Translations under genes and position numbers: made by a program
Assembly: GCF_900112525.1 (NCBI RefSeq)
Contig: NZ_FOMD01000001.1
Coordinates: forward strand, 1,426,001-1,490,000
Source of the DNA: Klenkia taihuensis
GTDB lineage: Bacteria > Actinomycetota > Actinomycetes > Mycobacteriales > Geodermatophilaceae
Length of the DNA stretch: 64,000 nt
Direction: 5' to 3'
Shown: positions 27,235-40,667 of the stretch, piece after piece
Layout: every line of letters starts with the position of its first letter
Position numbering within the stretch: the first letter of the stretch is position 1
Notes under the pieces: model-generated
What the model was told of the DNA's origin: nothing
Databases searched by the model: none
The model's input: only the letters and a program-made list of their open reading frames with translations

Positions 27235-27270
27235 GTGCTGCGCTCTGCCCTCCTCGTAGTCATCGACTAG
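27235..27270 (+). CDS. ilvB leader peptide (MLRSALLVVID)
   Basis: An 11-codon ORF, GTG to TAG, reading Met-Leu-Arg-Ser-Ala-Leu-Leu-Val-Val-Ile-Asp. Six of its residues are Leu, Val or Ile, the end products of the pathway served by ilvBNC, and five of these run consecutively before the stop. It lies directly after a good promoter and directly before a hairpin and an intrinsic terminator. This is the classic build of a ribosome-mediated attenuator, as described for ilv operons in other Actinobacteria. Confidence 0.85.
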   Translation: MLRSALLVVID

Positions 27271-27331
27271 CGCGACGGTCACCCGACCGTCGCGCCCACC
27301 CCTCCGTGCCTGCCGGCACGAGGGGTTTTTT
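27270..27331 (+). promoter_or_regulatory. ilvB transcription attenuator (two hairpins and U-run)
   Basis: First hairpin: perfect 11-bp stem, 27270-27280 with 27285-27295, whose first base is the last base of the leader stop codon. Second hairpin: CCCCTC + GTGCC paired with GGCAC + GAGGGG (27299-27325, one bulged C), followed by six T (27326-27331), a textbook intrinsic terminator. The two hairpins as drawn do not overlap. A possible competing pair is leader bases 27250-27257 with 27318-27325 (eight pairs). Confidence 0.8.
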
Positions 27332-27408
27332 GTTGGCCGGGTCCGATCCCGAGCACGAACGAGAGCCCCGCCGCACGCCCGCCCACGCCTTCCAGGGAGA
27401 CCCCCCAG

Positions 27409-29304
27409 ATGAGCACCACCGCCAGTGCCCAGGCCACCCCCGGTGCACCCACCCAGGCCGCCGCGGCGGCCACCGTCGGCGTCGAGTCCACCGACCGCTC
27501 GCTGACCGACGCGGCCCGACCGGCGGGCGCCCCCGCGACCGGCATCACCGGCGCGCAGAGCCTCGTCCGCTCGCTGGAGGCCGTCGGCGTCGACATGGTC
27601 TTCGGCCTCCCGGGCGGGGCGATCCTGCCGCTCTACGACCCGCTGTTCGACTCCTCCGTGCGGCACGTGCTGGTCCGCCACGAGCAGGGCGCCGGGCACG
27701 CGGCCACCGGCTACGCCCAGGCCACCGGCCGGGTCGGGGTCTGCATGGCGACGTCGGGCCCCGGCGCGACCAACCTGGTCACCCCGCTGGCCGACGCCTA
27801 CATGGACTCGGTGCCGGTCGTGGCCATCACCGGCCAGGTCGCCAGCGGCTTCATCGGGACCGACGCCTTCCAGGAGGCCGACATCCGCGGCATCACGATG
27901 CCGATCACCAAGCACAACTTCCTGGTCACCGACGCCGCCGAGATCCCGCAGCGGATCGCCGAGGCCTTCCACCTGGCCTCCACCGGCCGCCCCGGCCCGG
28001 TGCTGGTCGACGTCCCCAAGGACGTGCTGCAGGCGACCACCGACTTCAGCTGGCCGCCGAGGATCGACCTGCCCGGCTACAAGCCGACCACCCGCCCGCA
28101 CGGCAAGCAGGTCCGCGAGGCCGCCGCGGTCATCCAGGCCGCGCGCCAGCCGGTCCTCTACGTCGGCGGCGGCGTGCTCAAGGCCGGTGCCAGCGAGGTG
28201 CTGCGGGAGCTCGCCGAGCTGACCGGCGCCCCCGTCGTCACCACCCTGATGGCCCGCGGCGCCTTCCCCGACAGCCACGCCCAGCACCTGGGCATGCCCG
28301 GCATGCACGGCACCGTCACCGCCGTCGCCGCGCTGCAGAAGGCCGACGTCCTGGTCGCCCTGGGCGCCCGCTTCGACGACCGGGTCACCGGCAAGCTGGA
28401 GAGCTTCGCGCCCGGCGCCACCGTCGTGCACGCCGACATCGACCCGGCCGAGATCGGCAAGAACCGCAAGGCCGACGTCCCGATCGTGGGCGACGCCAAG
28501 GAGACCATCACCGAGCTGGTCGCCGCGATCACCGCGCTGCAGGAGAAGGAGGGCCGCGCGGACCTGTCGGGCTGGTGGGCGCAGCTGGACCGCTGGCGGG
28601 AGACCTACCCGCTGGGCTACGACCTGCCCGAGGACGGCGCGCTCTCCCCGCAGTACGTCATCGAGCGGCTGGGCGAGATCGCCGGGCCCGACGCGGTCTA
28701 CTGCGCCGGCGTCGGCCAGCACCAGATGTGGGCCGCGCAGTTCGTGAAGTACGAGAAGCCGGGCACCTGGCTCAACAGCGGCGGCCTGGGCACGATGGGC
28801 TACGCCGTCCCCGCCGCCATGGGGGCCAAGGCCGGCCGACCCGAGGCCACCGTGTGGGCCGTGGACGGCGACGGCTGCTTCCAGATGACCAACCAGGAGC
28901 TGGCCACCTGCGCCATCGAGGGCATCCCGGTCAAGGTCGCGCTGATCAACAACGGCAACCTCGGCATGGTCCGGCAGTGGCAGACCCTGTTCTACGAGGG
29001 TCGCTACTCCAACACCCGGCTGCACAACCGCGGCTCCGGCGGCGGGGAGATCGAGCCCATCCGCATCCCGGACTTCGTGCAGCTGGCCGAGGCGCTGGGC
29101 TGCGTGGGGCTGCGCTGCGAGCGCGCCGAGGACGTCGACAAGGTGATCGAGGAGGCCATGGCGATCGACGACCGCCCGGTGGTCATCGACTTCGTCGTCG
29201 GCTCGGACGCGCAGGTCTGGCCGATGGTCGCCGCCGGCGCCAGCAACGACGACATCCTGGCCGCGCGGGACGTCCGCCCGGTCTTCACGGAGGGACCGGT
29301 CTGA
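27409..29304 (+). CDS. ilvB: Acetolactate synthase large subunit
   Basis: IlvB (631 aa) is the ThDP- and FAD-dependent enzyme joining pyruvate with pyruvate or 2-ketobutyrate, the first common step to Val/Leu and Ile. The catalytic Glu is in [19 protein letters not shown]. The ThDP motif is [12 protein letters not shown] to LINN. NHDRV-type central domain residues and [14 protein letters not shown] are present. The first ~40 residues are a Thr/Ala-rich extension of no known role. The ATG follows AGGGAGA. The stop overlaps ilvN (TGATG). An attenuator lies 78 bases upstream. Confidence 0.97.
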
Positions 29305-38922: not shown

Positions 38923-38952
38923 TCGACAGCTCCCGGGGCGGGGTGCCATCAT
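38923..38952 (+). promoter_or_regulatory. Candidate promoter of the cimA leader
   Basis: TCGACA (38923-38928) and CATCAT (38947-38952) are 18 bases apart. The leader ATG follows after eight bases, so the leader mRNA would start at or near its own ATG, as at ilvB. Confidence 0.5.
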
Positions 38953-38960
38953 CTGCGGCG

Positions 38961-38993
38961 ATGCACACCACCGGCACGATCACCATCACCTAG
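38961..38993 (+). CDS. cimA leader peptide (MHTTGTITIT)
   Basis: A ten-codon ORF, ATG to TAG: Met-His-Thr-Thr-Gly-Thr-Ile-Thr-Ile-Thr. Five Thr and two Ile codons make up seven of ten positions. A hairpin and an intrinsic terminator follow, exactly as after the ilvB leader. Isoleucine is the end product of the citramalate route and threonine the precursor of the alternative route, so the peptide reads as a Thr/Ile supply sensor, comparable in logic to the E. coli thr leader. I know of no described example ahead of a citramalate synthase gene. Confidence 0.8.
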   Translation: MHTTGTITIT

Positions 38994-39047
38994 CGCGCAG
39001 TCACCCCCGACTGCGCGCCCACCTCCCGTACCCCGGGAGGTTTTTTT
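38993..39047 (+). promoter_or_regulatory. cimA transcription attenuator (two hairpins and U-run)
   Basis: First hairpin: ten perfect pairs, 38993-39002 (GCGCGCAGTC) with 39009-39018; its first base is the last base of the leader stop codon. Second hairpin: CCTCCCG (39022-39028) with CGGGAGG (39034-39040), loop TACCC, then seven T (39041-39047). The layout and the linker GCGCGCCCACC match the ilvB attenuator. Confidence 0.8.
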
Positions 39048-39080: not shown

Positions 39081-40667
39081 ATGACCAGCACCCCCGTCGA
39101 GGTCTTCGACACCACGCTGCGCGACGGTGCGCAGCGCGAGGGCATCACCTACTCCGTGGCCGACAAGCTCGCCGTCGCCCGGCTGCTGGACTCCGTCGGG
39201 GTCTCCTACATCGAGGGCGGGTGGCCCGGCGCGCTGCCCAAGGACACCGAGTTCTTCGCCCGCGCCCGCACCGAGCTGCAGCTCCGGCACGCGGTGCTGG
39301 TCGCCTTCGGCGCCACCCGCAAGGCCGGCGTCGCCGTCGAGGACGACGCCCAGGTGCGCGCGCTGCTGGACTCGCAGGCCCCGGTGGTCTGCCTGGTCGC
39401 CAAGAGCGACCCCCGGCACGTGCGCGACGCGCTGCGCACCACGCCCGAGGAGAACCGGGCGATGGTCGCCGACACCGTCGCCTTCCTCGTCGGGCACGGC
39501 CGGCGGGTGTTCGTCGACTGCGAGCACTTCTTCGACGGGTACGCCGCCGACCCCGACCACGGCGTCGCCGTCCTGCAGGCCGCCTTCGACGCCGGCGCCG
39601 AGGTCGGCGTCCTGTGCGACACCAACGGCGGCATGCTGCCCGCCGACGTCACCCGGGTGGTCACCGACGTCCGCGCCCGGGTCGGCGGCCAGCTGGGCAT
39701 CCACTGCCAGGACGACACCGGCTGCGCGGTCGCGAACTCCCTCGCCGCGGTCGACGCCGGGGTCACCCAGGTCCAGGGGACGGCCAACGGCTACGGCGAG
39801 CGCGCCGGCAACGCCAACACCTTCACCCTGATCGGCAACCTGGTCACCAAGATGGGCCTGCCCGTCGTCCCCGCCGAGTGCCTGCCCGAGCTCACCCGGG
39901 TCAGCCACGCCATCGCCGAGCTCGCCAACCTCACCCCCGACGACCACCAGCCCTTCGTCGGCGCCTCGGCGTTCGCGCACAAGGCCGGCCTGCACGCCAG
40001 CGCCATCAAGGTCAGCCCCGAGCTCTACAACCACCTCGACCCGGCGACCGTCGGCAACGACATGCGCATCCTGGTCACCGAGATGGCCGGCCGGGCCTCG
40101 GTCGAGCTCAAGGGCCGCGAGCTCGGCGTCGACCTCACCGGCCAGGACGCCGCGGTCGGCCGGGTGGTCACCGCGGTCAAGGAGCGCGAGGCCCGCGGCT
40201 GGTCCTACGAGGCCGCCGACGCCTCCTTCGAGCTGCTGCTGCGCGGCGAGCTGCCCGGCGCCCCCGCGCCGCTGTTCGAGCTGGAGAGCTGGCGGACCAC
40301 CGTCGAGCACCGCACCGACGGCCAGGTGGTCAGCGAGGCCGTGGTCAAGGTGGGGCTGCCCGACGGCGAGGGCGGCACCGAACGGGTGGTCGCGGTCGGC
40401 GAGGGCAACGGGCCGGTCAACGCCCTGGACAACGCGCTGCGGGCGGCGCTGGTGGGCCGCTGGCCGCAGCTGGCCGACGTCGCGCTCAGCGACTACAAGG
40501 TGCGCATCCTGGGCTGGACCGGAGGCACCAGCGCCACCACCCGGGTGCTGGTGGACACCGCGGACAAGTCGGGGGAGTGGACCACCGTCGGCGTGCACGA
40601 GAACGTCGTCGAGGCCTCCTGGCTGGCCCTGGTCGACGCCCTGACCTACGCCGTCGTCAGCCGCTGA
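39081..40667 (+). CDS. cimA: Citramalate synthase
   Basis: CimA (528 aa) condenses pyruvate and acetyl-CoA to (R)-citramalate, opening the threonine-independent route to 2-ketobutyrate and isoleucine. It belongs to the DRE-TIM family: FDTTLRDGAQREGITYSV at the N-terminus, with the metal-binding His pair region GIHCQDDTGCAVANSLAAVDAG. SAFAHKAGLHASAIKV and the C-terminal LeuA regulatory domain ending ALTYAVVSR follow. DGAQREGITYSVADKL and YIEGGWPGALPKDTEFF are typical of the long CimA group and not of 2-isopropylmalate or homocitrate synthases. The ATG has GAGGAG at good spacing. A Thr/Ile leader and terminator sit just upstream. It overlaps the convergent VOC gene by 11 bases. Confidence 0.92.
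   Translation: MTSTPVEVFDTTLRDGAQREGITYSVADKLAVARLLDSVGVSYIEGGWPGALPKDTEFFARARTELQLRHAVLVAFGATRKAGVAVEDDAQVRALLDSQAPVVCLVAKSDPRHVRDALRTTPEENRAMVADTVAFLVGHGRRVFVDCEHFFDGYAADPDHGVAVLQAAFDAGAEVGVLCDTNGGMLPADVTRVVTDVRARVGGQLGIHCQDDTGCAVANSLAAVDAGVTQVQGTANGYGERAGNANTFTLIGNLVTKMGLPVVPAECLPELTRVSHAIAELANLTPDDHQPFVGASAFAHKAGLHASAIKVSPELYNHLDPATVGNDMRILVTEMAGRASVELKGRELGVDLTGQDAAVGRVVTAVKEREARGWSYEAADASFELLLRGELPGAPAPLFELESWRTTVEHRTDGQVVSEAVVKVGLPDGEGGTERVVAVGEGNGPVNALDNALRAALVGRWPQLADVALSDYKVRILGWTGGTSATTRVLVDTADKSGEWTTVGVHENVVEASWLALVDALTYAVVSR

Follow-up and report, generated by a model that had tools for sequence, protein, structure and literature searches.

What controls cimA, the citramalate synthase gene of Klenkia taihuensis, and which amino acid would be read by that control? 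In the thr and ilv operons of enterobacteria, whether an intrinsic terminator takes effect depends on a ribosome stalling at cognate codons, and these attenuators have competing helices and longer leader peptides. Within the window (the whole stretch of 64,000 nt that was analysed), the original prediction placed a leader-peptide attenuator ahead of cimA and compared it to the enterobacterial thr system. The promoter, the ten-codon ORF, the hairpin starting in the stop codon, the U-run terminator and cimA are all found where it had placed them:

38923–38952, + strand: promoter-like pair, -35 TCGACA and -10 CATCAT with an 18-nt spacer and TG before the -10
38961–38993, + strand: leader ORF of ten codons (MHTTGTITIT), apparently leaderless, with ATG at 38961 and TAG at 38991–38993
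38979–38987, + strand: sensor codons ATC ACC ATC, at -14, -11 and -8 from the first base of P1
38993–39018, + strand: hairpin P1 of 10 bp, arms GCGCGCAGTC/GACTGCGCGC and loop ACCCCC, its first base being the G of TAG
39021–39047, + strand: intrinsic terminator, 8-bp stem at 39021–39041 and seven-T run at 39041–39047
39081–40667, + strand: cimA, citramalate synthase, with ATG at 39081 (TIGR00977, 594 bits against a cut-off of 450)

The promoter-like pair occurs once between 38700 and 39200 against a shuffle mean of 0.0, and the terminator call is likewise a single one against a shuffle mean of 0.1. The segment 38957–39051, in which two C separate P1 from the terminator, has a fold of -40.8 kcal/mol (z -5.5), equalled by none of 200 shuffles. 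Since the -10 ends 8 nt 5' of the ATG, the cimA mRNA probably begins at or beside the leader start codon. A -10-like hexamer ends 6–10 nt 5' of the chosen start in 132 of 163 leaders, a count that is not independent because the starts were chosen partly by that hexamer. At gathering score the element matches no Rfam family, the only matches in the window being two tRNAs, while scanning the leader and six relatives at a low threshold gave only unrelated sRNA, lncRNA, miRNA and snoRNA families. A threonine-dehydratase C-terminal domain (PF00585, E 9.2e-24) is encoded in the same genome, so that citramalate would plausibly be a second route to 2-ketobutyrate.

That the element is beyond chance follows from its conservation in relatives. 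The seven leaders of the genus read MHTTGTITIT (twice), MHTTGTIIIT, MHTTGTIIIA, MHTVGTIVIT, MHTAGTIIIT and MHTAGTIIT. Six of them have Ile at -14 and -8 from P1 and the seventh at -11 and -8; the residue at -11 is Ile in four of seven, Thr in two and Val in one. For the order, 60 genomes were sampled, all with some match, and the region upstream of cimA was read in 50 loci. Comparing this region between relatives was the check that accompanied the original prediction, and the Ile codons and the terminator are indeed conserved: in 40 of the 50 loci there is an ORF that ends in TAGCGCG, with P1 and terminator after it, and Ile codons and terminator are kept in the class as well. The relatives retain the leader ORF, its length and stop varying. 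One of the ten loci lacking the leader, L050, has a diverged element (R1, introduced below, E 5.6e-4) without TAG; its Ile codons run into a long hairpin with no TAG at the hairpin base.

A covariance model built from 38 order leaders, ORF columns included (R1), matches in 169 of 296 class genomes at E <= 0.01, and cimA itself is found in 236 of the 296 at E <= 1e-60. Their positions were compared using 148 class RNA matches and 149 cimA places among the matches listed, the genome of the window excluded. Among these matches, R1 lies 20–217 nt upstream of cimA on the same strand in 106 of the 149 other genomes, and in those genomes 106 of 108 R1 matches are upstream of cimA and two elsewhere. 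The R1 matches G311:C3:144–216 and G208:C781:6209–6287 do not lie upstream of a listed cimA.

Because R1 has learned the Ile codons, a further model (R2) was built from P1 and terminator only (19 leaders) and is blind to the ORF. In its alignment 93.0% of the cells pair compared to 87.3% in shuffles, 25 cells are changed on both sides compared to 8.6, and covariation is 0.208 compared to 0.118, each of these being reached by 0 of 500 shuffles. Seven pairs are changed on both sides compared to 4.5 (3/500), and further pair types are not above the shuffles (183/500). Sense-strand R2 matches, with E up to 0.5 allowed, lie upstream of cimA in 94 of 120 class regions, covering 24 of 28 families, and at 65 of 80 named loci, giving 159 of 200 together. 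The class regions were obtained from 149 by dropping 21 (six f32 genomes without and 15 f33 genomes with a match) and fetching 120 of the 128 that were left. Streptomyces, Micromonospora, Amycolatopsis, Nonomuraea, Actinomadura, Cellulomonas, Kribbella, Pseudonocardia and Modestobacter are among the named genera with the element. At least four U are present in the 7 nt 3' of the terminator stem in 157 of 159 class matches.

Family f32 (at a guess, Frankiaceae) has cimA, with the element at 0 of its 19 loci, and upstream of cimA in Pseudofrankia (L246) the Ile element is absent. A different conserved stretch lies upstream of cimA at f32 loci L094, L099, L105–L107, L111, L112 and L115–L117. It contains an ORF without Ile codons, ending GGEPV(S/P)(V/A)(A/T)R(S/T/F)G(R/H), whose TGA sits in the apparent loop of a GC-rich hairpin; five of these loci were tried against Rfam without a match. 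Two contigs titled as Bifidobacterium breve MAGs, whose taxon labels look doubtful, carry a cimA 65–66% identical to that of the window; no leader was found at L214, and an Ile leader is present at L210.

The original prediction had both tRNA-Ile and tRNA-Thr controlling cimA. In the sequence upstream of R2 matches, 117 of 129 class leaders with a full P1 show two or more Ile among their last five codons, 30 of 159 having been set aside from this count for a partial or long-looped P1. For class and order together this is true of 153 of 169 leaders, nine having one Ile and seven none, compared to 6 of 169 in a control window 30–60 nt upstream, where the best of three frames was taken as for the leaders. 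An antisense window gives a high 52 of 169 and is a poor, uninformative control. The seven leaders scored without Ile are Streptomyces leaders with a misplaced P1, and all seven show an Ile ORF on re-reading. When these and the 30 set aside were re-read, a short ORF in which ATT or ATC precedes AT(T/C/G) was seen in 34 of 37; the two codons encode Ile-Ile and in a few cases Ile-Met.

Positions were counted over those leaders that have any Ile (162 of 169), in frames chosen by Ile count. In the main register (139 of 162), Ile stands at -14, -11 and -8 in 76, 129 and 118 leaders, respectively, and Thr is not conserved there, being found in only 3, 2 and 7. Another 20 leaders are shifted by one nt and all have Ile at -12 and -9, and three are shifted the other way. 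The codon at -11 is ATT in 91 of 169 and ATC in 38, so the residue is kept and the third base is free. Thr makes up 20% of the codons in the upstream half of the leader ORFs. The stop codon falls at the base of P1 (-2) in 89 of 162 and in the P1 loop (+10) in 43. Streptomyces-type leaders have long inserts within P1; in all 28 that were scored, the first paired codon is at -14 (20) or -13 (8), the pattern having allowed only -12 to -14. The codons thus speak for the isoleucine half of the predicted control, while threonine sensing was rejected. A leader-peptide attenuator ahead of citramalate synthase as such gains support from the conserved Ile codons and terminator in relatives.

The same architecture is present before other genes, beginning with the window itself:

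27235–27333, + strand: ilvB sister element, with leader MLRSALLVVID, TAG at 27268–27270, P1 from 27270 and an abutting terminator
27409–29304, + strand: ilvB-like acetolactate synthase gene 3' of the sister element; the name comes from its sequence and not from a family scan

This ilvB leader shares the architecture of the cimA leader and has Val-Val-Ile at -14, -11 and -8. R1 matches it at 27253–27333, and so does a model built from a mixture of leaders of different genes (R3); R2 misses it. At the ilvB loci of relatives, R1 matches in 29 of 30 at E <= 1 and in 28 of 30 at E <= 0.001, the thirtieth locus (L308) having no upstream sequence. Leaving out the two of 29 matches without TAGCGCG, the 27 leaders have Leu or Val at -14 (14 and 13), Val, Ala or Leu at -11 (24, 2 and 1) and Ile, Val or Leu at -8 (17, 6 and 4), whereas the codons ahead of cimA are Ile only. 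R3 gives three matches in this genome, namely cimA, ilvB and leuS (leuS E 0.0015). The leuS leader (L351, G000:C3:289049–289110) reads MTGGLLLPRPC, with the same architecture and a TGA stop inside the P1 5' arm.

Of 198 phylum genomes, 48 have an R2 match at E <= 0.001, and 38 of these lie outside the class. Twenty outside-class matches from 18 genomes were fetched and lie ahead of ilvB (13), leuA (2), leuB (2), cimA (1), leuS (1) and glnA (1); the leuA, leuS, leuB, cimA and glnA identities were confirmed at L318, L321, L332, L322, L325 and L324. Fifteen of these leaders could be scored, and cognate codons stand at -14, -11 and -8: Leu-Leu-Leu ahead of leuA and leuS, Ile-Ile-Ile ahead of leuB (L322) and cimA (L325), and Val/Leu/Ile ahead of ilvB, with one Phe in L329. 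As for the unscored ones, L324 (glnA) has no leader, L327 is unreadable, L330 fits by eye, and L331 and L333 give no clean fit. The codon thus changes with the gene and its distance to P1 hardly does. With isoleucine codons that are conserved, and codons that follow the pathway at a nearly fixed distance, the cimA element is very likely a ribosome-mediated transcription attenuator reading charged tRNA-Ile (probability about 0.78). Against this reading stand the absence from f32 and nine order loci that have leuB close upstream of cimA and lack the element.

How the switch would work was approached by testing 13 segment pairs for extra complementarity in 116 non-redundant leaders. The two arms of P1 covary strongly, as do those of the terminator (z about -20 against swapped partners). 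The P1 3' arm is less complementary to the terminator 5' arm than are shuffled (z +8.4) or swapped (z +2.9) partners, and the same is true of the P1 5' arm and the terminator 5' arm (z +5.7 and +4.7). No mutually exclusive antiterminator helix using the terminator 5' arm was found in the 116 leaders, making the analogy with the enterobacterial thr attenuator a loose one. What is constant is geometry. The gap between P1 and terminator is 0, 1 or 2 nt in 85, 25 and 6 of the 116, although the model that finds them itself has abutting hairpins. Thirteen of the 15 leaders outside the class have a gap of 0–2 nt; the exceptions are L325 (4 nt) and L322 (3 nt when a lone pair is ignored). The P1 5' arm is 10–13 nt long in 72 of 116 leaders. 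The front of a ribosome lies about 12 nt beyond the first base of the A site, so a ribosome starved at -14, -11 or -8 would end at -2, +1 or +4, that is, at the base of P1.

Based on this constant geometry (the abutment and the codon-to-P1 distance), the following switch is proposed. Transcription would start at or beside the leader start codon, with a ribosome trailing the RNA polymerase. When isoleucine is ample, the ribosome would pass the Ile codons and reach the stop codon, where its front would cover the P1 5' arm; P1 would be held open, the terminator would fold and transcription would end. When charged tRNA-Ile is scarce, the ribosome would stall; its leading edge would then be at the P1 base, and P1 would remain folded. 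As P1 abuts the terminator, the stalled ribosome would lie against the terminator base and might block its completion, allowing cimA to be transcribed. That termination responds to isoleucine, and in this direction, we infer from the arrangement of the parts. The last step, in which P1 acts as a steric staple, is the least certain part and is put forward tentatively. It is equally tentative to extend the scheme to the Actinomycetota as one shared, modular attenuator, with three cognate codons about 14, 11 and 8 nt before a terminator-abutting hairpin, no antiterminator helix, and a stalled ribosome stapled by P1 as the antiterminator. Only the codons would be swapped (Ile for cimA and leuB, Leu for leuA and leuS, Val/Leu/Ile for ilvB).

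A close rival to the staple is that P1 alone is the antiterminator: folded beside the terminator, it would not be accommodated in the polymerase exit channel, and the ribosome would only melt P1 when isoleucine is plentiful. It has the same geometry, but it predicts read-through without translation, an unsafe default, and we consider it unlikely. About as improbable is that the P1 loop pairs with the 3' arm of the terminator to form an antiterminator, a pairing put forward for the ilvB-II motif of Corynebacterium. In the window, loop ACCCCC faces GGGAGG. Over 127 leaders the loop:3'-arm duplex averages -9.29, compared to -8.48 for shuffled loops (0/200) and -9.06 for swapped loops (6/200), and in the 116 leaders this is the sole pair with an excess besides the hairpins' own arms, a modest one (z -3.2 and -2.1). 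Some class leaders, however, have almost no such pairing (L137 and L148 with small loops, L149 at +0.4, L216 at -0.1), and most of the P1 loops predicted outside the class (12 of 15) are only 3–4 nt long, so that loop pairing can hardly be general.

Leader-peptide attenuators of the trp type provide a general precedent for another arrangement, in which the stalled ribosome blocks P1 and its freed 3' arm pairs with the terminator 5' arm. Given the below-chance complementarity of these arms, and a ribosome that, starved at -14 or -11, would scarcely extend to P1, such an antiterminator is very improbable and was rejected. Rejected too, as contradicted by conservation and scarcely credible, was the idea of a leuB terminator followed by an ordinary cimA promoter region with an ORF arisen by chance. 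leuB does lie just upstream of the cimA leader in the window, but in 23 of the 40 leader-bearing order loci no leuB was found within 400 nt upstream in the available stretch, whereas in nine of the ten leaderless ones leuB lies 6–217 nt upstream of cimA. Moreover, a promoter-like site precedes the ORF and the Ile codons are conserved.

As to known systems, the ribosome-stalled cimA attenuator proposed here resembles the enterobacterial thr and ilv attenuators in stalling on cognate codons and in its intrinsic terminator, and differs in that no competing helix of their kind was found and the sensor positions lack conserved Thr. The actinobacterial ilvB attenuators, including ilvB-II, are alike in having a short ORF with branched-chain codons, P1, a U-run terminator and a branched-chain gene. 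According to the parts consulted of PMC10272879, P1 loop pairing with the terminator is proposed for Corynebacterium ilvB-II and the uORF there spans most of P1, whereas here P1 starts at or just after the sensor codons. The same parts report a Val-to-Glu change in the Corynebacterium ilvB leader without effect, as the available text of PMC1262725 does for exchanged codons in the ilvB leader of S. coelicolor; both count against an attenuator reading. The latter text covers trp, cys, ilvB, leuA and leuS elements and ileS T-boxes in Actinobacteria, with no cimA in it. The T-boxes also respond to tRNA-Ile, but they bind the tRNA directly and have no leader ORF, while the cimA element matches none of the Rfam families at gathering score. 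The leuS, leuA, trp and other leaders of Streptomyces are similar in being small, mostly leaderless peptides with cognate codons (sections of PMC8079986 and PMC1262725). Table 4 of the S. lividans reannotation (PMC8079986) holds eight leader peptides, none before cimA; in S. lividans, LeuL2 (MRAVRLLLSEPR) precedes leuS and looks like the leuS leaders of the present analysis. For Firmicutes, PMC9413887 describes His attenuators that have antiterminators, and the main text of PMC11109978 and of PMC2965389 mentions neither cimA nor citramalate. The original prediction was not aware of a cimA leader, and none was found in the literature searched, mostly without subscription papers; a class-wide Ile attenuator of cimA thus provisionally appears to be undescribed.

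Such an attenuator would give regulatory logic to the citramalate route to isoleucine, for which cimA is widespread in the class. The Ile codons ahead of cimA and the Val/Leu/Ile codons ahead of ilvB point to a cell that monitors individual amino acids enzyme by enzyme. With its codon ruler and abutting hairpins, and no competing helix found, the element would be a test case for a stalled ribosome that itself blocks a terminator. Genes for citramalate synthase and 2-isopropylmalate synthase are easily confused by sequence, and the leaders may also help to separate them, with Ile codons marking the former and Leu codons the latter. Outside the class, two leuB genes have the attenuator, L322 (G474) and L333 (G356); the Ile-Ile-Ile leader of L322 looks as if LeuB there served the citramalate route.
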